64,000 nt of DNA from an uncultured Pseudomonadota bacterium. Its GTDB lineage: Bacteria; Bdellovibrionota_B; Oligoflexia; Oligoflexales; CAIYRB01. The stretch's first letter is position 1; every line of letters begins with the position of its first letter. Shown here piece by piece: positions 15,225-64,000 of this stretch. The notes below the pieces were generated by a model. The model ran no database searches. It was not told the DNA's origin and saw only the letters and a list, made by a program, of their open reading frames with translations. The stretch is from NCBI GenBank assembly GCA_903928445.1, contig CAIYRB010000198.1, forward strand, positions 1 through 64,000, in the 5' to 3' direction. The translations under genes and the position numbers were made by a program.

Positions 15225-16011
15225 TACCGGGCGTGATCTTGGTCACACCCTGACCCAATACCACGATATCGAAGACGCCAAACCCACCACTATTTTCGCT
15301 AAGCGACAAGAGGCCAGACCCCTTGCGTTCGGCGCTGGACAATAGCAGCTTATCTTCTGAATTGCTTACGGCAAGAGCCTGGATTTGTGGTTGGGCCAGC
15401 GCCGCAGTCGATGAGCCTACCAGCAAGAAATCAGCGCTTTGCGCCAAAACCACCGCATCCCAATTGAAGCTGGAAAACAGCCAACTAATGATCGCCTCTG
15501 GGGTCACGCTAGTCGGACCCTGTCCTGAGTGGACCACAGTCGCTTCGTCACCGACTTTGCGTAGAATCTTCCAGTCGCCCTTTTCCGGTGCCAAAATCAA
15601 CGTGTCGGCACCAGTGATTTGGACGACCGCGTCAAACGGGTCAACTTTCTTTAAATTGCTGCTGTTTAGCTTAAAGTCCCAATCGGCGCTCGCAAAATTT
15701 GCAACGCGCAGGTAACTCAAGCTGTCAAACTTGGCTTTATCGAGAGGCAAGAATACGGGAAATTTCCCCGCCTTTGTCGGAAGATCGCGTAGAATCGCCA
15801 GCTGCCGTGGAATGCCACCAGTTGCATCCTTGACGGCCTCTAGCCAAGTCGCCAAAGCCGGTGCAGCGACAGGGCTAGAAGCTGCTGGCATCGCCCTCCC
15901 GGGTGCTTCACCAGCTCTCGCTAAATCACCCCCGGCTAACAACGGCAAAGCCGCAACGATGCAACCCACCAACAGGCCACAGACAATCTGCATAAAGCCC
16001 ATCTCTACCAT
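15196..16011 (-). CDS. Exported hypothetical protein, last gene of envelope operon
   Basis: I do not recognise this family. An N-terminal hydrophobic segment (MQIVCGLLVGCIVAALPLLAG) looks like a signal peptide; start codons at 16011, 16002 or 15993 are all possible. The rest is a soluble, beta-rich sequence of about 240 aa ending in a Lys-rich tail. A Cys within the hydrophobic segment does not fit a lipobox well. Its start overlaps the stop of the barrel-like gene by seven bases, so the two are translationally coupled. The role is inferred only from context: periplasmic partner of the FecR-like and barrel-like proteins upstream. Confidence 0.75.
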   Translation of the reverse strand: MVEMGFMQIVCGLLVGCIVAALPLLAGGDLARAGEAPGRAMPAASSPVAAPALATWLEAVKDATGGIPRQLAILRDLPTKAGKFPVFLPLDKAKFDSLSYLRVANFASADWDFKLNSSNLKKVDPFDAVVQITGADTLILAPEKGDWKILRKVGDEATVVHSGQGPTSVTPEAIISWLFSSFNWDAVVLAQSADFLLVGSSTAALAQPQIQALAVSNSEDKLLLSSAERKGSGLLSLSENSGGFGVFDIVVLGQGVTKITPGTKVILEKKK

Positions 16012-17675
16012 GAGAGCACCGCTCCGATCCCGGCATAGCCAACCGTGTAAGACACTCCAGAGATATTAGAGTCGCCAGGTGCGAGCTCGCCAATAGGCTT
16101 GTTCGCTGACAAATTTACCGATTCGAAGAAATAGAAGGCCATGAGCGCAGTCTTAAGCGGCACACCAAAGAGGGGAATAGTCGGCCCAGCGGTAAAGTAG
16201 GCGTCGATGCCAAACTGGTTCGATGTCACCTTACCACCCGTTTTAATTAATGAAAATCCTGAATTGATCCCATACCACCCGCGAATGGTGTACCAATCCG
16301 AAAGCTCTTCCAACCCAACTTCAAGACCTAAACTGACCGTCGTTCCCAGTCTAAAGTTCGCCGTGTTAGATACCAGTCCGTCTCCATCAATCTCGGATGG
16401 CAACTTGGCATTGAAGGTCCATACTCCAACCTTTGGATCGATTGTCACCCGGTCCACAAGTAGATGCGGGTCAAAGTCAAAAGAGTAACCAAGCGTATGC
16501 CGCGAAAACTGGATACTCGTATCTACAGGCCCGCCGCTTCCTGGCACTGCCGCTGTCGCTTTCGGCAGCAGATCATAATAATAGCGCAAGCCCTTGGCCG
16601 GGCCGCCGCGAATTTCCACCAGTAGTCCAAAAATACTGGTCTTGTTGAGCAAGGTTCCAAGACCTCCAACTCCAGGCAACACCTGCCGGCCGTAACGCAG
16701 CCCGACGTACCCAGACGCAGTGGAGCTAAGTAGGCTGCTCAACAAGTCAAATTTACCCAGCATAAAATCGCCCAACTTGCCACTTTGTGCGGCCGCGGCG
16801 AGTGCGATCTGCGCCTGCTTCAATTGCTCGGCAGTCGCTTTATGCTGCGAGCCTGGACCGGCCGAGGATTGTGCCCAAAGGCTACCCGTTTCCAAGGCAG
16901 CGGCTACCGCAGGGGAGGTTTCATAAATGACCTCACCGCCGACGAGGATAGAGCCCTTCCTTTGCTTCTGCTTCTTCGGGGGAACCACGTTTACCCGTTT
17001 GGCACTACCGACCACGTCGGACCGCCAGCGCTGTTCTGGTTCTACCCATTGCAGCCTATAGAGCACCAAATACTCTGGAGGCTGAGGAACAGCAAATTTG
17101 AAGTCCTTAGCTTTACCTGCACGCCAATAGCGCCCCTTAAACTGCGGTGGGCTCCCGGCAAGATCGGACTTGGTCAATAGTCGAGCCATTGGCGCACCCT
17201 CGAGTAGGGCAAATGCGACCGTGTCAGCAAATTCATCATCGGCAAAGAACTCAAGGGTAAACTCCGAAGACGGCATCGAATATTCAGCAACCACCGAATA
17301 GCCGCGATTGTCCTTATGCTTTAGGACAATCGTGGCCTCGCCCCTGCCATCAACCACCGTAACCAGCCAAGCGGAGTCCTTTTTCTCGCCGGATACCAAA
17401 TCAGCGCCTCTAAAGCAGGAAAACGACGCGAAAGCACCGAAGCCGAAAGGGCCCTTTCCCGCTAATAGCGCCGCTCCTAGTCTTTCGCATCCGACCTTCC
17501 ATTGCTTCCGATACTTATCTTTCTTCTTGCCCTTTGGCAGGGCGCGACTAGCCTTTACATCCAACTCAATACGCAAGTGCCCAGCGTCAATGACTTCTGC
17601 AACAGCCGTCGGGCTGAGGCAGAAGCCAAGCAGTAGGACTATGCTCATGAGACATTGCAAAGTCAGGGTGCTCAC
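16005..17675 (-). CDS. Exported protein with likely outer-membrane beta-barrel C-terminus
   Basis: A 556-aa protein with a signal peptide (LMSIVLLLGFCLSPTAVA). The N-terminal half is a globular region with a basic KGKKKDKYRKQWK patch. The C-terminal ~250 residues alternate polar and aromatic residues in strand-like pieces (GYVGLRYGRQV, TLGYSFDFDP, IRGWYGINSGFSLI, SYTVGYAGIGAVLSW). The chain ends in Trp, as many outer-membrane barrels end in an aromatic residue. No family is recognised. It begins three bases after the FecR-like gene and overlaps the next gene, so these three form one operon. Confidence 0.75.
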   Translation of the reverse strand: MSTLTLQCLMSIVLLLGFCLSPTAVAEVIDAGHLRIELDVKASRALPKGKKKDKYRKQWKVGCERLGAALLAGKGPFGFGAFASFSCFRGADLVSGEKKDSAWLVTVVDGRGEATIVLKHKDNRGYSVVAEYSMPSSEFTLEFFADDEFADTVAFALLEGAPMARLLTKSDLAGSPPQFKGRYWRAGKAKDFKFAVPQPPEYLVLYRLQWVEPEQRWRSDVVGSAKRVNVVPPKKQKQRKGSILVGGEVIYETSPAVAAALETGSLWAQSSAGPGSQHKATAEQLKQAQIALAAAAQSGKLGDFMLGKFDLLSSLLSSTASGYVGLRYGRQVLPGVGGLGTLLNKTSIFGLLVEIRGGPAKGLRYYYDLLPKATAAVPGSGGPVDTSIQFSRHTLGYSFDFDPHLLVDRVTIDPKVGVWTFNAKLPSEIDGDGLVSNTANFRLGTTVSLGLEVGLEELSDWYTIRGWYGINSGFSLIKTGGKVTSNQFGIDAYFTAGPTIPLFGVPLKTALMAFYFFESVNLSANKPIGELAPGDSNISGVSYTVGYAGIGAVLSW

Positions 17676-17678
17676 CGG

Positions 17679-19349
17679 TTAATGGTAGTCAACGATCTCG
17701 ACACTCTGTAAAAAAATTGCCATCGCCTGGGTATCAACAAAAGCAGCAACTTCACTGCTCGTCTTAATGAAGTCTCGACTGACTGGATAAATCTTATTTT
17801 TTTTCATCAAGTAGAGGACCTTACCCTTGTCGAGCAAAGCGCCAATGGTGTCCGACAGGGCCGCCTTACTTGTTGCACGGACATCGTACAGGGCTGATCT
17901 CGCGCCGCGAAAAATGAAATCAGCATTCATGGTCAGCATCACTTTGTCCAAAACTGATTTGTCGATATTTGTACCGGTTACTTGGGCGACTACCTCCTGC
18001 TTTCTAACGACAAATAAGCCAGTCTGACCAACCAGTCCTTGGCCACTCAAGCCGATACGCGTCGCTCCGCGAATGAACGGAACAAATTTCGCATAATCAA
18101 TGCCCGAAGCAAGGTGAAGCCCCACCGGCGCCGCATTTACGTCGATCAGTTGCTTGCTGGCTAGCCAGTGCGTTGAAGGGTCCAATGGTCTTTCATTCAA
18201 GGCGTCAAGACCAATACTCACCGGACCATCAAAGGCGGTTGGAAGGGAGTAGACCCGTGTCATGATGGGCTTTATATTCATCGATTGGCCGCGATCTTTG
18301 CCACTGACTACTGCAGCGCCTCCACGAACGCCAAAGGTGTATATCTTGATCGCGCCTCGCGTGTTTATAGTCGCACTGCTAAGGGCCCTGTCGAGGCCGA
18401 CATAGAGTGACTTTTCGGTGAGCCCAGAGTTAGGGACCTCACTCGGCTGCTTCGCTGCGGCATCGGTCAGCTCGAATCGTGGGCGCCACTCTCCACGCTC
18501 TGGACGTACCGTCGGCAAGGCGACCGGGTAAGCAATGCCTTTGGTTTTAAGTGAGGGCAGAGGCTCCAAGGTCCAATAATCCAGTCCGTCTAGCGGCACC
18601 TCTAGCGAGGCCTCCATCGCTGGTGTCAAAAGTGGCGGCGATGGCACGACTACGGCGACTGGTGGCGGGGCCAGTCGCGGCGTCTTAGCGACGATGGGTT
18701 CAGGGACTACAACAGGAGCCGTCTGAATGAAACTCGGACTAACCACGGCAACCTTTTCTATGGGTGGCTTAGGCGGAACGGTCCAGTCCGTGGTGGTCGG
18801 CTTGAACCTCTGAATAGGCTTGCCTCCCGCCTCTTTTGACACACCCAGCTGCTTACCGGCAACGACGCGGAAGGTCTCCTCACCAGCTCGAATAATAATT
18901 GGACCGCAGCTAGAACAGTCACTCGACACCTCACCAGCGGCCGCCCCCCTGATCAACTTAATCAAAAACGAAAAGTCCCGCCCACTCGTGCTAATGGCTG
19001 TAATTTTCACCTGCGTGCTCTCGCTCAACGTCAATACGCGGTCTGCTCCGAGCCTAATACGTACCTTGCCATCCTCACCAGTCGCAACCATATCGCCGTC
19101 ATACAATCCGTCCTTGGTCACCAACTCGCGCCATCTCACCACGCCTTCAGACCGAACAACCGCCCCACCAATCTTCCTCTCAAGCGTTGCCACCGGTTTG
19201 ATGCTGGCCACAAAAAATCGTTCTTGTTGCGTAATCGCAACCACAACGATGCCAACCAGAAGCAACCAAACAGCGAAGGCAAATCGCTTGAATAGCTGAC
19301 TCTTCTCCTGATCATATCCGTCTGCCAAGATATCCATCGGTAATTCCAT
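17679..19349 (-). CDS. FecR-domain inner-membrane protein
   Basis: One N-terminal membrane helix (FAFAVWLLLVGIVVVAIT) anchors the protein with most of it in the periplasm. A FecR-type domain follows: GAVVRSEGVVRWRELVTKDG, GDMVATGEDGKVRIRLG, LTLSESTQVKI, RGAAAGEV. Next come a long Pro/Val-rich linker (about residues 190-265) and a ~280-aa C-terminal domain of unknown fold. Unlike E. coli FecR there is no adjacent ECF sigma factor, and the linker could span periplasm. It is first in a three-gene operon and is divergent from a membrane SpoIIE-type phosphatase, suggesting an envelope-sensing role. That role is inference. Confidence 0.8.
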   Translation of the reverse strand: MELPMDILADGYDQEKSQLFKRFAFAVWLLLVGIVVVAITQQERFFVASIKPVATLERKIGGAVVRSEGVVRWRELVTKDGLYDGDMVATGEDGKVRIRLGADRVLTLSESTQVKITAISTSGRDFSFLIKLIRGAAAGEVSSDCSSCGPIIIRAGEETFRVVAGKQLGVSKEAGGKPIQRFKPTTTDWTVPPKPPIEKVAVVSPSFIQTAPVVVPEPIVAKTPRLAPPPVAVVVPSPPLLTPAMEASLEVPLDGLDYWTLEPLPSLKTKGIAYPVALPTVRPERGEWRPRFELTDAAAKQPSEVPNSGLTEKSLYVGLDRALSSATINTRGAIKIYTFGVRGGAAVVSGKDRGQSMNIKPIMTRVYSLPTAFDGPVSIGLDALNERPLDPSTHWLASKQLIDVNAAPVGLHLASGIDYAKFVPFIRGATRIGLSGQGLVGQTGLFVVRKQEVVAQVTGTNIDKSVLDKVMLTMNADFIFRGARSALYDVRATSKAALSDTIGALLDKGKVLYLMKKNKIYPVSRDFIKTSSEVAAFVDTQAMAIFLQSVEIVDYH

Positions 19350-47822: not shown

Positions 47823-50402
47823 TCAGCGATTGCCAGCCTTCCTTGCTCGCCGTGTCGACCACTGGTCAGTGACGTCGATTAATTTTTGCGCCATTTCTTG
47901 AATGGGCAGTTCGACTTCGACAGCACCATTCCGCATTGCCGCACCAGGCATGCCATAGACAACGCAGGTCGCCTCGTTCTGGCCCAATGTGTAGGCCCCA
48001 GACTCCCGCATGCGGAGCAATCCATCCGCCCCATCTTTTCCCATCCCGGTGAGAATCACGCCCACGGCGCCCGCACCCAAAACCTGCGCCCCCGAGCGAA
48101 ACAGCACGTCGACCGAAGGCATGTGCCCACTCACCGTTGATCCAGCAAAGACGCGCACCTTAAGTGCAGACGTCGTTTGCCTGAGATCCATTTGATAGCC
48201 ACCAGGTGCTATCAATACCCGACCATCTTTAACATCGTCGCCGTCAGCCGCCTCTTTAACTTCAAACGGCATAGTCGCGGCCAGGCTCGCGGCGAAGGCT
48301 TTGGAGAATTGTGCGGGAATATGCTGCACGATGACGATTGGCGGAATATTTGCTGGCATTTCCCGAAGAATCTCGCGCACAGCTTCAATTCCTCCGGTCG
48401 ATGATCCAATCAATATAATCGGGCGAATCCCACTCGCCTGGATCCGACGCCGAATCGGCGTAATTCTAGCTGGCTCGACGCGTACCTTAGCCCGACTAGC
48501 ACTCCTAAAGCGCTGGCAAATCTCGCTCGCGGACGCATCGATCTCACTTAGTGACGGCTTCTGAATGTAGTCGACGGCACCCGCCGCTAAGGCTTGCATC
48601 ACTTGATCACCCTGATCCATGCTCAAGGACGTGACCATCACGATCGGCAAGCGCAATTTTGGCACAAGAAGGCGTACTAAGGTCACACCGTCCACCTCCG
48701 GCATATTGACATCCAATGACAGTACGGTTGGTCTAAGTCGCGCGATCTGCTTTTCAACATCCAAAGGGTTTTGGCACTCGCCGACCACTTCAATGTCTGG
48801 GTCCCGAGCAAAGATATTACGCAACACCTGTCGGATCGTTTTCGAGTCGTCGACAATCAACACCCGAGTCTTTCCGTAGGAATCGTGTTGATTTCGTTCA
48901 ATAGGCAGCAAAGCACCGATTGGATTTTTAAAAGCACGGGATTCGCCAGGCGGCATCTCCCTTGAAGCCACCAACGGCTTACTCGCCTGCACTTGAGATT
49001 TACGCTCCAAGACACCCTGCGTAGGGGCAGCTGCGGTACCGACCGCATGGGTTGCCACCGCACACCTAAGCTTCATCTTTAATTCATCGCCGCGCTCCGC
49101 CATGTTACCCAAAGAGGGCTTCTCCACATAGTCGACGGCACCTAGTTCAAGGGTTTTCACGCCTAGCGTCGTTTCCTCGCGAGAAATCGAACTGAGCATG
49201 ACGATCGGCGGGTGCCCAAGCACTCGTCGCTGCTGCAGGTAGTCAACCCCGCTTTTCACTGGCATGTGTATGTCTAGCGCCATAACGTCAAAACTTAGGC
49301 GCGACGCCAGCTGTAAGGCTTCCTCGCCATTGGCTGCGGTACCAACGATGTCAAAACCCGCGTCCTTCGTCAGAATACTCTTAAGAATTGCCAGTATCGT
49401 CGGCGAATCATCGACCGCCAAAACACGAATGCGCGACTGTGGCAGCGTCTTCGTCTCTACCGTGCTTACAGTGGACTTGGTCACCCCAGCGCCACTTCCT
49501 GGGACATGACCTGTCATTGGGCTGGATAACACATCTGGCTTGGGAGCAAGCTGGTAGACAGAGGTACCAAGATTAGCAATAGGCAGCTTTAAGCCACTGA
49601 GGCTTTCTGTCGTGCCAATGACGAAATATGCATGAGAGGATAGAAATGCCATAATACGCGCAGTAACTTCGCGTATCTGTATCGGCGTAAAATAAATAAA
49701 AACGTTCCGACAGAAGACCAGATCGTAGGCCTCTCCCGGCTTGGGCGCTGATATCGCCATCAAGTTGCCGACATCAAAGCGACAAACCTGACGCAGAACA
49801 TCCTTAGCGCGAACAAAGTTCGCAATATCACCAGTCCCGCGCGCCCAGCAACCACTGGTATAGACCGCCGGAGCAGACTTGATCTCATCCATCCGATAGA
49901 CGCCATTCTTGGCAATCGCCACGGATTCAGGGTCAACATCGGTGGCATAGATTTCGAAGGTACCGCCAGGCATATGTTGCGGCCAATGCTGCGATAAAAA
50001 CATGGCCAATGAATAGGTTTCCTGGCCGCGGCTGCAAGCCATAGTCCAAACTCGCAGATGCCTTTTACCTAAGGCCTTGAGAGCTACCGCAATCCGGCCA
50101 AGGCCATGCTCCCGTAGAAACTCAAAGTGCTCGAATTCGCGAAAGAAAAAGGTATGATGCGTCGTCAGTAGAGAAACCAAAGCAGCGGTTTCAGCGGTCA
50201 GATGTGCCTCGAGGTAGCGCTCATAAGCACGTGGATCAGACATTCCCAGGTCGATCATACGCCGCGAAATGCGCGCTTCGACCATCGAACGCTGGCGCTC
50301 GCCAAGCTGAACGCCGGTAATTTCGTGAACCAAACCCGAGACTCGGTCGATCAAGCGCTGGCCAAGCTCAGGTGCTGGGAGCAACGGCGCAACTGTGGAC
50401 AT
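47823..50402 (-). CDS. CheR methyltransferase - receiver - receiver - CheB methylesterase fusion
   Basis: One 859-aa protein holding both opposed adaptation enzymes. CheR part (about 1-285): TTHHTFFFREFEHFEFL, SAM loop ACSRGQETYSLAM (family ACSTGEEPYSIAM), EIYATDVDPESV, LVFCRNVFIYF. Receiver 1 (about 325-445): VLAVDDSPTI, MALDIHMP, MLSSIS, VEKPS. Receiver 2 (about 515-630): VLIVDDSKTI, LSLDVNMP, MVTSLS, IQKPS. CheB (about 665-850): catalytic Ser in LIGSSTGG, His in VVQHIPAQF, Asp in LTGMGKDGADG. All catalytic and phosphorylation residues look intact. It is last in cheA-cheW-mcp-cheRB, with its ATG directly after the mcp stop. Confidence 0.93.
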   Translation of the reverse strand: MSTVAPLLPAPELGQRLIDRVSGLVHEITGVQLGERQRSMVEARISRRMIDLGMSDPRAYERYLEAHLTAETAALVSLLTTHHTFFFREFEHFEFLREHGLGRIAVALKALGKRHLRVWTMACSRGQETYSLAMFLSQHWPQHMPGGTFEIYATDVDPESVAIAKNGVYRMDEIKSAPAVYTSGCWARGTGDIANFVRAKDVLRQVCRFDVGNLMAISAPKPGEAYDLVFCRNVFIYFTPIQIREVTARIMAFLSSHAYFVIGTTESLSGLKLPIANLGTSVYQLAPKPDVLSSPMTGHVPGSGAGVTKSTVSTVETKTLPQSRIRVLAVDDSPTILAILKSILTKDAGFDIVGTAANGEEALQLASRLSFDVMALDIHMPVKSGVDYLQQRRVLGHPPIVMLSSISREETTLGVKTLELGAVDYVEKPSLGNMAERGDELKMKLRCAVATHAVGTAAAPTQGVLERKSQVQASKPLVASREMPPGESRAFKNPIGALLPIERNQHDSYGKTRVLIVDDSKTIRQVLRNIFARDPDIEVVGECQNPLDVEKQIARLRPTVLSLDVNMPEVDGVTLVRLLVPKLRLPIVMVTSLSMDQGDQVMQALAAGAVDYIQKPSLSEIDASASEICQRFRSASRAKVRVEPARITPIRRRIQASGIRPIILIGSSTGGIEAVREILREMPANIPPIVIVQHIPAQFSKAFAASLAATMPFEVKEAADGDDVKDGRVLIAPGGYQMDLRQTTSALKVRVFAGSTVSGHMPSVDVLFRSGAQVLGAGAVGVILTGMGKDGADGLLRMRESGAYTLGQNEATCVVYGMPGAAMRNGAVEVELPIQEMAQKLIDVTDQWSTRRARKAGNR

Positions 50403-52577
50403 CTAAAGGTCCTCAAAGCGGGGGTCATCGGCCATCGGCACGCTGTCACCACCGACGGCTTTAGCTGCGCGTGGGCGGCCCCCAGCCGCCGCATTTGCGG
50501 CGCGGTCGTTAGCTACAGCAAGCGATGGACTGGGGCGCCTTAATTCGTGTACCTGAGCGGAACGAACGGATTCGGTCGAGCGGTGCGAAGGAGACGTAGG
50601 CCTAGTGCTTGGCACCAACGGATGCCCCTGCTGTGGAGTGCGGGACGCAGGAGAAGCCGCACTTCCTTGTACGATCTGCCGCAGCTCCTGGGTGTTGTGA
50701 GCCAGCGTCGAAACTCGCTCAGCGATCCGTTCCGCTTCTTCAGCAGTTGACCTTGAAGCACTAGAGTTAGCATGAGTGACCTGATCGATCTGATTAATCG
50801 CCTTGGTGATTTCTGCAAGTCCGGTCGATGTCTCGGCCGTTGCATTCGATATTTCGCCGACCATGGCGCCAACACTGGTCACGTTTTGCACTACTTCCTC
50901 AAGCGCTACATCACATTGACGGGCCAGACCGACCCCGGTTTCAACCCGGGCGCGGCCACTGCGTACAGCTTGCTCCACCCTGGTTTTCGTATCGCTTACG
51001 ATCTGCTCGACTCGCCGAATCGATCCGTCGAGCATGTCAGAAATTTCCCTAGCGGCTTTGCCACTCATCTGCGCCAAATTGCCAACCTCTTCGGCAACGA
51101 CGGCGAATCCCTTACCGTGCTCTCCCGCACGGGCTGCCTCTACCGAGGCGTTAAACGACAGTAGTTTTGTTTGGAAGACGATCTCGTTGATGACTTTGGT
51201 TTTGCCGCCAATTTCATTGATCACTCGCGTAATTTCGACCAGTTGACGATTCGATTCCTCAACCTGGTGGGCGACCTCAGAATTGCTAGCATTGATTTCA
51301 TCCATAGCACCAATCATGCTCTGTACAGCGGCACGACTACGCCCAGCGGCATCTTGGCTTGATGCGGCGACTCGCCGAGACTGCTCGGCATTCTCAGCAC
51401 TTTTGCGGACCATTGCATTCATTTCTTCGACCGACGCCGCGGTTTCTTGCACCGCCGCCGCCTGTTCGGTAACCGCCGAAGCTAGTTCACTAGACGTCGT
51501 TGAAATGGCATCGGCAGCCTGCCTCGTCTCGTCAGTCGCTTGCACTAGAGCTGCATTTACCCTTGTCAGCTTGGCGGTGGTGCGATTTATCGCGACGTAG
51601 ACCAACACCATGGTCGCAAAGATAAGCAAAATCGAAATCACAGCCATCACCAATACATCGCCCTCGGCTGGATCATGCTTGGATATCATGACACCAACGC
51701 GCCAATTTAGACCTGGATAAGAGGAATAGCCCTTGGACGGGGCAACGCCGATATGGGCCGACCCAGACAACCCAGCAACCCGCGTGTCCCTGACAAAATT
51801 GCGCGGCGTCGTGGTCGCTGTTGCGGCCTCCGAGCTTAGGAACTTTTCCTTTAACACTGCGGTCTCTTTGCTCGAATCCGACAGCGTGGTTCCATCTTGG
51901 CGCATCAAAATCGTCTCAACTTGCTGCACCGACTCGCTTTTCGCTGTATTTGCTGACTCGGCTAGAACGGCTTGAACGACATCCTTCCATGACACGACAT
52001 TTCGCCACACTCCGATAAGCTCACCGTTTTTTCCATGAATCGGCGCTGAGAACGCCATTGCTGCGCCATCGCTGGAGAATGTTTGGCCACTCATTGCATC
52101 AAAATACAGGTCTTCAATAAATGAGGTTCCAGGCTTAACCGCGCCGCTGGTGTTCGCTTTAAACCATTCCGCGTCTGCCGCAGATTGGCCGATAAACCTT
52201 TGCATTTGTAACGGTTGACCAGTCTTTGACCCGCCATTCACCGCGACAAGTATCCCCTTCGCATCATAGACCGTCATAAGATCGTAGATCGGAGCATAGA
52301 TCTTGATCATGACATCCATGAAGTCGCGGATTTTCTGCGCATCTCCGCTTATTGCTGCTTCAGACGAAGCAAATGCTTGAACATCGCCGTAGCGCTCAAA
52401 CAAGTTACGGTCGAGAATATCAGCAATGGTCTTTGCCGCCGTTTCAGATACAATACCTCGACCCCTATCAATCGTTCGAATCTCGCTCCAAATATTGATG
52501 AGCGTCGATGAAACGCCGATGATCCCAAGTACCAGAGTCAGTGCCAGGAGGCGAAATTTGAGTGATCGATGCTGCAT
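50403..52577 (-). CDS. Methyl-accepting chemotaxis protein
   Basis: An inner-membrane chemoreceptor. TM1 ([21 protein letters not shown]) is followed by a large ~280-aa periplasmic dCache-like sensor, TM2 ([22 protein letters not shown]) and a signalling coiled coil with hairpin tip [33 protein letters not shown]. After the coil there is an ~80-aa Ser/Pro/Arg-rich tail ending DDPRFEDL. A flexible tail ending in an acidic-aromatic motif resembles the tethers that dock adaptation enzymes, so it may recruit the adjacent CheR-CheB fusion; that is inference. Ligand unknown. Confidence 0.93.
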
Positions 52578-52620: not shown

Positions 52621-53130
52621 TTACGATGCTGCGGCCAACTTTTTCATCGCGATTAAATCCTCCAGAGAGAGGGCCTTTGGCAGGTCAAGCACCAGCACCA
52701 AGCGTTGATCCCGTCTAGCCACACCCTGGATATATTCGGCATTAACTCGAGTATCGACGTCTGGCCGAGGAGCAATATCCGCATCATCCAAGGTCATCAC
52801 GGCCTCCACGGAATCAACGACGACGCCAAACCTGAGTGGTTCAAAGTCACAGATGACCACCGCAGTTTCACTACTCCGCTCTGATTTGAAGCCAAGCTTG
52901 GCTCGCAAATCAAAGATAGAAATGATCTGACCACGTAGGTTCATGATGCCGAGAAAGTGTGCTGGTGTATGCGGGACTCGCGTCGTCTCGGGCATGGCAA
53001 CTACTTCCCGAATCGATAGCAGCGGTATTGCGAAGTCCTCCTCGGCAAGGCGGAAGCGAAGGTAGCGACTGTGATGACTTGATGCAGCACCTTTGACGAG
53101 TGCTAGTCCCTGATGTGTTCTTTCGTTCAT
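52621..53130 (-). CDS. cheW: Chemotaxis adaptor CheW
   Basis: It couples receptors to CheA. A 169-aa CheW domain: YLRFRLAEEDFAIPLLSIREVVAM, HFLGIMNLRGQIISIFDLRAKLG (conserved N-L-R-G) and FGVVVDSVEAVMTL. It overlaps the cheA stop by four bases (53127-53130), so the genes are coupled. A few extra residues at the N-terminus (about 20) have no recognised role. Confidence 0.95.
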   Translation of the reverse strand: MNERTHQGLALVKGAASSHHSRYLRFRLAEEDFAIPLLSIREVVAMPETTRVPHTPAHFLGIMNLRGQIISIFDLRAKLGFKSERSSETAVVICDFEPLRFGVVVDSVEAVMTLDDADIAPRPDVDTRVNAEYIQGVARRDQRLVLVLDLPKALSLEDLIAMKKLAAAS

Positions 53131-54881
53131 GCGGCACCCCTGGATCTTTTGTCCTTTTTAACTAGCTCCTTGAGATCAAGAATCAGCGCCGCGGTACCAT
53201 CGCCGAGAACGGCTCCTCCGGTCACGCCACGCGATTGCCTGACTTCACTGCCGAGTCGCTTGATCACCACCTGTTGCCTCGACACGATTTCATCAACCGT
53301 GATGGCAAATGGTTGACCCTTATCGCGAATGATCATCGCGGTTTCGTCTGGTGGCTGATTCTTCAGTCCGCGCTGGCCCAACTGTGTGGCGAGTGAATGC
53401 ATCGGAATATGCTCTCCGCGCAGGCTCAAAATGGCGCCCAGCCCGACGACGTTGTGAACATCCTCGCGGCGTGCGCGAATGGACTCATGCACCTGCGTCA
53501 AAGGAATCACGTAGCGCTCACTACCCGACCGCACCACGAGGCCATCGATAATCGCTAGGGTCAACGGCAGGTAGATGCGAAAAGTCGTGCCCTTTCCTAG
53601 CTCTGTCACCATTTGGATCTCACCCTTCAGCACTGTTTCGACGTTGGTCTTCACCACATCCATGCCAACCCCACGTCCGGAGATATCTGATGCGGATGCC
53701 TTGGTGGAAAACCCTGCGATGAAAATCAGGTTTTGACACTCCTCTTGGGTCAAAGACTGGTCGGTTCGAATCAGACCTTTCTCGACGGCCTTCTGCCGCA
53801 AAACCTGGGCGTTTAGGCCCTTCCCATCGTCGGATATTTCCAACATGATTTTTCCACCCTCATGCCCCGCCGAAAGGCGGATGCGACCTTTGGCAGACTT
53901 ACCAGCCGCCGCGCGTTCACCAGGTGTTTCAATGCCGTGATCAGAGGCATTGCGGATGAGATGCACCAAGGGATCGCCAAGCAGGTCCACGACCGTCTTG
54001 TCCAATTCGGTATCTTCACCATTGAGCTCTAGCTCGATTTCCTTACCGAGGCTTTTTGCGGTGTCGCGGACAATGCGCTGCATTTTTTGAAAGGTCTGGC
54101 GCAGCGGCATCATCCGCAGACTCATTGAATTGTCCTGGATTTCCTTTGTAATTTTTGCTAGTTGAACCACAGTCTTCTGCAACAGCGGTGATTCAATCTG
54201 ATGCCGCTGCTGACTTAAAACAGTCTGCAAAATGACCAGCTCACCGATCATGGTGACGAGGCTGTCAACCCGCCCAAGGCTGACGCGAATACTGTCGTCT
54301 ACGACGGAAGACACGGCTTTCTTAGCCGCAGCGGCTTCAACCTGCGCCTTGGCAAGGTTAGCTGCCGGGGGAGGTAAGGGTTGATCAACAGGTGGGTGCA
54401 GCATGGAGGCTACAGCAGCCTGCTCAGGCTCTACAGGTGGCGCGGGATCCGTAAATATCTCAAAGCCAACCTCAGCAACGCTACTTGGGTTCGCTAGCTG
54501 GCCATTGATCGCCGCCTTTAGCCGTTCAGCAAGCTCTGGATCGGTGGCCACTGCGTCACCGCCGCGTTGACCGAGTACCATACGCCTAAGTTCGTCATTG
54601 CATCGTAAGAGCAAGTCAAAGACCTGCTGTGACACAGGAATTTCCTGATTTTTAATCTTCAGCATCAGGGACTCGAGATCGTGGGTAAATGCGCCAATCT
54701 CTGCCAAGCCCACAGCCTTCGAACTGCCCTTTAGGTTATGGGCTGAACGAAAGATTTGATCGATTAGTTGGGTATTCGTTCGATCGTTTTCCCAAGCCAA
54801 AAACGCGTGTTCCAGCGTCTCAAGCGTATCGACCGCTTCTTCAAGGAAAGTAGCCCTAAGCTGTTGCTGTAATTCGTCCAC
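53127..54881 (-). CDS. cheA: Chemotaxis histidine kinase CheA
   Basis: The receptor-coupled kinase. P1 has the phospho-accepting His in FRSAHNLKGSSKAVG (about residue 48). A Pro/Ala-rich linker of ~70 residues takes the place of a P2 (CheY/CheB-binding) domain. P3 dimer (SLGRVDSLVTMIGELVILQ), P4 ATPase (DPLVHLIRNASDHGIE, ISDDGKGLN, GRGVGMDVVK, GKGTTF) and CheW-like P5 follow. At 584 aa it is shorter than E. coli CheA, consistent with loss of P2. No cheY is in the operon; receivers exist in the CheR-CheB fusion. Confidence 0.95.
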   Translation of the reverse strand: MDELQQQLRATFLEEAVDTLETLEHAFLAWENDRTNTQLIDQIFRSAHNLKGSSKAVGLAEIGAFTHDLESLMLKIKNQEIPVSQQVFDLLLRCNDELRRMVLGQRGGDAVATDPELAERLKAAINGQLANPSSVAEVGFEIFTDPAPPVEPEQAAVASMLHPPVDQPLPPPAANLAKAQVEAAAAKKAVSSVVDDSIRVSLGRVDSLVTMIGELVILQTVLSQQRHQIESPLLQKTVVQLAKITKEIQDNSMSLRMMPLRQTFQKMQRIVRDTAKSLGKEIELELNGEDTELDKTVVDLLGDPLVHLIRNASDHGIETPGERAAAGKSAKGRIRLSAGHEGGKIMLEISDDGKGLNAQVLRQKAVEKGLIRTDQSLTQEECQNLIFIAGFSTKASASDISGRGVGMDVVKTNVETVLKGEIQMVTELGKGTTFRIYLPLTLAIIDGLVVRSGSERYVIPLTQVHESIRARREDVHNVVGLGAILSLRGEHIPMHSLATQLGQRGLKNQPPDETAMIIRDKGQPFAITVDEIVSRQQVVIKRLGSEVRQSRGVTGGAVLGDGTAALILDLKELVKKDKRSRGAA

Positions 54882-63231: not shown

Positions 63232-63283
63232 CTAAACTCCACGGCCGCATCTGCCGATGCCAAGGGCTGGGGGTAACCGATTC

Positions 63284-64000
63284 GTGAGCAACGAGTTTCT
63301 TTTTAATCCAGCCAGCCTGACAATCATGATCGTCGATGACCACGATCCGATCCGCAAGGGGATCAAGCGGATCGTCGCAGCTATGGGTTTTACGGAAATC
63401 ATCGAGTGCTTCGATGGTGAAGAGGCCCTTAAGATTCTGAACAAGCGCCCCATAGACCTGATGATTCTAGACCTATATATGCGTCATTACTCGGGATTTG
63501 ACGTTCTCGAGCATATCCGCAACCGGGCCATTGCGGCTGACATTCCCGTGATTGTCGTCACCGGAGAAGCAAGTAAAGAAGAGATCGTCAAGGCTGCTGA
63601 TATGGGCGCTGAGGACTACCTGTTAAAGCCCTTTCAAGCCAATGACCTAGAAAAGAAAGTGATTAGGACGCTGAATAAATACTACTCGCCCACCCCGCTG
63701 CTAAAAACCCTGCGCAAAGCTGAGCGCCTTTACCTTGAGGACAACTATGGCGACGCCTTAAAAGGTTTTGACGCGGCCTTGGCCCTGGATGCCCTGAGCG
63801 CTAGAGCTGTTCACGGTAAATCCCTCAGCCTCGACAAGTTAAATCGGCACGAAGAGGCGATAGCAACTCTTAGCGAGTCGATCAAAAATAATAGCAGCTA
63901 TCATAAAAGCTTTGGCGCCATCGCTGACATCTTCATCAAGCACAACCGTCCGGTCGAGGCGATCGATGCCATGCAGCATGAGCTAGAAATCAACCCAAAG
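63284..64000 (+). CDS. Response regulator with C-terminal TPR region, cut by window end
   Basis: Not in the ORF track because no stop lies in the window. From GTG 63284 the frame stays open for 239 codons. Residues ~10-130 are a receiver: IMIVDDHDPI, phospho-acceptor Asp in MILDLYMRHYSGFDVLE, Thr in VVTGEAS, Lys in LLKPFQ. TPR-like helices follow (LKTLRKAERLYLEDNYGDALKGFDAALALD, HEEAIATLSESIKNN, RPVEAIDAMQHELEIN). This is a receiver with a protein-interaction output rather than DNA binding. It follows the TPR gene by 52 bases on the same strand and may share its operon. Confidence 0.85.
   Translation, partial: MSNEFLFNPASLTIMIVDDHDPIRKGIKRIVAAMGFTEIIECFDGEEALKILNKRPIDLMILDLYMRHYSGFDVLEHIRNRAIAADIPVIVVTGEASKEEIVKAADMGAEDYLLKPFQANDLEKKVIRTLNKYYSPTPLLKTLRKAERLYLEDNYGDALKGFDAALALDALSARAVHGKSLSLDKLNRHEEAIATLSESIKNNSSYHKSFGAIADIFIKHNRPVEAIDAMQHELEINPK

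Follow-up and report, generated by a model that had tools for sequence, protein, structure and literature searches.

A single-chain CheR-REC-REC-CheB protein as a predicted receptor-tethered enzyme of chemotactic adaptation

The 64,000-nucleotide stretch of DNA analysed here (the window) contains a single gene that joins the CheR methyltransferase and the CheB methylesterase of chemotactic adaptation in one chain, with two receiver (REC) domains between them. The fusion is real, rare, repeatedly evolved and apparently undescribed in the literature that was searched. From sequence comparisons, we consider it likely (a probability of about 0.75) that the protein is a receptor-tethered bifunctional adaptation enzyme serving the single receptor of its operon, with a history of domain decay followed by gene merger.

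The gene, its domains and its operon

The fusion is the last gene of a minus-strand operon with the order CheA (without P2)-CheW-MCP-fusion, with the following features.

53127..54881, minus: CheA with Hpt, dimerization, HATPase and CheW domains (Pfam; P2 match absent)
52621..53130, minus: CheW (Pfam)
50403..52577, minus: MCP with a weak dCache match (below the cut-off) and a C-terminal tail of about 120 residues (Pfam, sequence)
50403..50426, minus: putative C-terminal tether motif DPRFEDL of the MCP, plus the stop codon (sequence, motif search)
47823..50402, minus: CheR-REC-REC-CheB fusion gene, 859 residues (one open frame; orthologue in genome G001 93% identical, full length)
49548..50360, minus: CheR methyltransferase domain, residues 15-285 (Pfam CheR_N and CheR; FFRE, SAM-site and FCRN motifs conserved)
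49113..49427, minus: REC1, residues 326-430, a CheB-type receiver with DD/D/S/K intact (groups with the receivers of CheR-REC-CheB proteins)
48873..49067, minus: inter-receiver linker, residues 446-510 (low model confidence; the fastest-evolving part; no traces of decayed CheB or CheD)
48543..48869, minus: REC2, residues 512-620, the receiver of the CheB unit (within the match to the NCBIfam CheB model PRK00742, residues 511-845)
47877..48422, minus: CheB methylesterase domain, residues 661-842, with Ser, His and Asp present (Pfam, motifs, structure matches)

The frame starts with the ATG at 50402 and has no internal stop in 859 residues. All of the Pfam matches lie above the curated cut-offs and follow the order CheR_N and CheR (residues 19-276), two Response_reg domains and CheB_methylest (663-841); the original prediction of this order in one gene at 47823-50402 is thereby confirmed, with the strand being minus. 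The NCBIfam model of full-length CheB, PRK00742, covers the C-terminal 335 residues (449 bits against a cut-off of 293), and none of the NCBIfam models among the matches listed covers the whole architecture. The closest solved structures are those of separate CheB (6YMZ, 1A2O) and CheR (1AF7, 1BC5) proteins.

The catalytic residues and both phospho-Asp sites had been predicted to be intact, which the motifs bear out. In all 50 aligned modules CheB keeps its Ser/His/Asp, CheR its FFRE and SAM-site motifs and REC1 its DD/D/K; REC2 likewise keeps its phospho-acceptor residues, bar one DD-to-ED change. The protein contains both the CheR_N and CheR domains with the SAM-site motifs that mark a CheR, and the receiver followed by a catalytic domain with Ser, His and Asp that marks a CheB. 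We infer that the fusion comprises a predicted CheR methyltransferase, acting on receptor glutamates with SAM, and a predicted CheB methylesterase activated via receiver phosphorylation. Purifying selection is seen on each of the four domains when the window is compared with G001 (dN/dS of 0.11, 0.02, 0.07 and 0.11 in domain order, with 0.02 for REC1). An AF2 model (low depth) has four folded domains and three low-confidence linkers (residues 288-322, 454-508 and 639-658); its pTM of 0.39 makes it uninformative on domain packing, and it was left out of the proposed mechanism.

The CheA and CheW genes overlap, the stop codon of the MCP directly adjoins the start codon of the fusion (TAGATG), and a threonine dehydratase-like gene comes after the fusion. 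The operon order CheA-CheW-MCP-module is kept in many relatives. The claims that the CheA lacks P2 and that the operon lacks CheY both stand: Pfam finds the other CheA domains and no match to P2, and the operon contains no CheY-like gene or other lone receiver. The source genome encodes FliM and five CheA proteins, and CheR/CheB fusions are present in three of the five CheA operons, namely that of the window, one with a REC-CheR-REC-CheB protein (C204) and one with a CheR-REC-CheB protein (C163). The same genome also has an older-type CheB-CheR fusion with an open frame of 1519 residues (L007, C202). Elsewhere in the window, two adjacent 556-residue genes (16005-17675 and 17679-19349) are mutually dissimilar and have no Pfam match, and a gene encoding a receiver with TPR repeats (63236-64000) runs off the window end.

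Distribution and origin of the fusion

Single-gene fusions with two receivers were found 17 times in 16 genomes of two phyla. The phylum of the window (58 genomes) has nine in eight genomes, and Bdellovibrionota (the phylum of a Pseudobdellovibrionaceae MAG; 369 genomes) has eight more at full length. An artefact of assembly or gene prediction, a thought invited by the draft state of the source genome (212 contigs), is vanishingly improbable. The identical 859-residue frame is present with 93% identity in a second species (MAG LacPavin_0920_SED2_MAG_57_20, from Lake Pavin sediment and filed as Proteobacteria), and this frame together with the 15 further full-length fusions, some of them in one-contig genomes or on megabase contigs (G047, G049, G238), excludes an assembly join, the error that had been named as able to overturn the prediction.

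In the majority of relatives the module is instead encoded by two adjacent genes, CheR-REC-tail and head-REC-CheB, and one form or another of it is present in 115 of the 369 Bdellovibrionota genomes (E ≤ 1e-125). Frames of about 1100 residues were counted as split, and one locus with an assembly gap between the halves was left out (L197 in G231). A reading of the ~1100-residue frames as long fusions was rejected, as the domain scan resolves them into two genes in the same frame, one stop codon apart. In G002, of the same genus as the window, the module as sequenced reads in three frames (L039:5740-9241): CheR with a TAA stop, real or due to a sequencing error, REC-tail and then head-REC-CheB. 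Three other phyla (399, 297 and 296 genomes) gave nothing at E 1e-118 in a search that scored the two to three best candidates per genome and had no positive control, and no full-length match was found on plasmids. No published description of a CheR-REC-REC-CheB protein was found in a search of the openly accessible literature. The architecture, which had been called uncommon, is therefore rare and apparently undescribed but not unique, given the 17 fusions and the many two-gene versions in two phyla.

The split form has about 200 residues after CheR-REC and about 140 residues before REC-CheB, both without Pfam matches. Aligned with hhalign, the tail matches CheB (probability 92.7, E 4e-7, score of 47.5 against 22.6 for the best of 100 column shuffles) and the head matches CheD (probability 96.7, E 3e-10, score of 63.5 against 18.5 for the best shuffle). 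Other domains score below 2% against the tail and head profiles, and the contrast also holds against reversed profiles. In addition, the NCBIfam CheB model extends through REC1 into the tail of the split form, and the tail profile, run in plain HMMER, aligns in the expected register with the first part of genuine CheB domains. None of the 30 tails has the GMG.DG motif, and none of the 33 heads has the Cys and His motifs of CheD. These profile comparisons identify the CheR-REC tail as a decayed CheB and the REC-CheB head as a decayed CheD. Undecayed CheD-REC-CheB proteins exist in both phyla (Pfam CheD E of 1e-22 to 1e-26), and their presence, together with the identities of the decayed regions, indicates that the ancestral pair was probably CheR-REC-CheB and CheD-REC-CheB. 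The intact CheD-REC-CheB proteins, with deamidase and methylesterase in one chain, are encoded at L042, L048, L196:4471-6066, L028, L034 and L115. Catalytically dead CheB tails on CheR-REC and dead CheD heads on REC-CheB, possibly with a docking role, occur in many Bdellovibrionota (L040, L050, L052, L170-L195, L198-L201).

Both extra regions are present in 33 of 33 split pairs and neither in any of the 17 fusions, in which the receivers are separated by 38-83 residues and no remnants of the decayed domains were found in the linkers. In a tree of concatenated CheR, REC1, REC2 and CheB, the window and G001 have the split forms of G002 and of G007, a genome from their order, as nearest relatives (support 100/97), and the remaining fusions lie elsewhere. 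An AU test rejects a single clade of all 17 fusions (p = 0.00012). The genes have therefore undergone two or more separate mergers, none of which retained a decayed domain. In the history that we propose, the ancestral pair would have decayed to CheR-REC-psiCheB and psiCheD-REC-CheB, and at least two gene mergers would then have left out both decayed domains.

A putative receptor tether

In E. coli the pentapeptide NWETF tethers CheR and CheB. The receptor of the operon seems to carry a dedicated putative tether resembling NWETF at its C-terminus, where the ~120-residue tail is followed by 12 terminal residues (letters not shown). Ends of the form [FW][EK][DE][LIVMF] are present on 31 of 40 operon receptors of two-receiver modules compared with one of 23 other receptors (p = 7e-9). 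The exact DPRFE[DE]x-stop end occurs in six of 54 genomes of the window's phylum, once in each and always on an MCP adjoining a fusion, and the reversed pattern has no match among the same 54 genomes. The motif is altered in the fused clade of Bdellovibrionota (DPGF..).

The published pentapeptide is xZxxZ, where Z is F, W or Y (PMC7390727), which the MCP end RFEDL matches with its aromatic residue at position 2 but from which it departs with Leu at position 5. The tether census required an aromatic last residue and would thus miss DPRFED[LIV], which ends in L, I or V (PMC7390727). Tethers can select activated CheB (PMC8609364), and insulation by a tether is known for McpB/CheB2 of P. aeruginosa, after which a receptor-specific tether here would be a second example of pathway insulation (PMC7698151). 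The conserved receptor C-terminus VPS.NDPRFED[LIV], an NWETF variant outside the published consensus, was observed at window positions 50403-50426 and at L038, L043-L047 and L176-L201.

Proposed role and known systems

REC1 is the most constrained part of the protein. Judged by its grouping, it is a receiver of the CheB type; the esterase that belonged to it is decayed in the relatives and absent in the window protein. An origin of REC1 as a fused CheY was considered and found to be unsupported, since REC1 groups with the receivers of CheR-REC-CheB proteins (in a short alignment with many forks open). Being the most constrained part and derived from a CheB-type receiver with a lost esterase, REC1 may have taken on the control of CheR or persist as a buffer for phosphate; most likely it gates or tunes CheR, or takes up phosphate in competition with REC2.

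In the proposed mechanism, the putative tether would hold the fusion enzyme on its receptor, to which the CheR domain would add methyl groups. Phosphate from CheA on REC2 would open CheB, which would remove the methyl groups in the standard feedback. REC1, a leftover of the CheR-REC-CheB ancestor, would also accept phosphate, either to tune CheR or as a competitor of REC2, and covalent joining would fix the opposed activities at a 1:1 ratio in one place. As had been suggested, CheA phosphate might be divided between the two receivers and thereby set both activities. Receptor methylation is unregulated in the textbook view, which a CheR with its own receiver would break if the proposal is true. 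Further, a natural fusion with at least two origins allows a direct comparison of the same module in fused and in split form.

An extension of this scheme, in which the decayed CheB and CheD would be docking modules that link the two enzymes and become redundant once these are fused, appears unlikely; in this reading, too, phosphate on REC1 would lower CheR and phosphate on REC2 would raise CheB, turning a chain that methylates its tethered receptor into one that demethylates it. One deletion could create each fusion, so the joint loss alone is no proof of a docking role. The fusion might even confer no functional advantage, a chance single deletion between REC1 and REC2 having taken out the stop codon along with the decayed domains and been tolerated. 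This would account at once for the fusion and the loss of both decayed domains, and for the strict split-versus-fused pattern of the extra regions, but the two or more independent origins, the persistence in two phyla and the purifying selection on every domain make it somewhat doubtful. We are similarly hesitant about REC1 as a mere phosphate sink or buffer that gains and then loses CheA phosphate and so slows CheB activation, with CheR unregulated: the invariably kept phosphorylation residues of REC1 and an operon with no lone receiver speak for it, whereas the near-invariance of REC1 and its place beside CheR, in split and fused modules alike, suggest a contact role too.

The preferred reading, a receptor-tethered bifunctional enzyme, can be set beside known systems. 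The separate CheR and CheB of E. coli and Salmonella (1AF7, 1BC5, 1A2O) are alike in their catalytic domains and residues, in a CheB under its own receiver and in a C-terminal receptor tether; the window protein differs in being one chain with a second receiver, and its putative tether is xFE[DE][LIV] rather than xWExF. CheB-CheR fusions, often termed CheBR and counted for example in Geobacter (PMC8396549), likewise hold both enzymes in one chain, but in the window protein the order is reversed, so that CheB does not precede CheR, and receivers are present. The CheR-TPR fusions that are known (PMC3447774) also provide CheR with a regulatory appendage, although this is TPR instead of receivers and CheB is absent. 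The two-gene modules of Bdellovibrionota and relatives share four homologous domains, the operon and the tether with the fusion, but are two proteins with one decayed extra domain each. The CheR-REC-CheB and REC-CheR-REC-CheB proteins of the window's phylum (C163 and C204 in the source genome) also place CheR before CheB in a CheA-CheW-MCP-fusion operon, but have one receiver between the enzymes and receptors without the DPRFED[LIV] end. REC-CheR-REC-CheB proteins, with their N-terminal receiver, were observed in operons of their own at L053:9008-11431 and L026.
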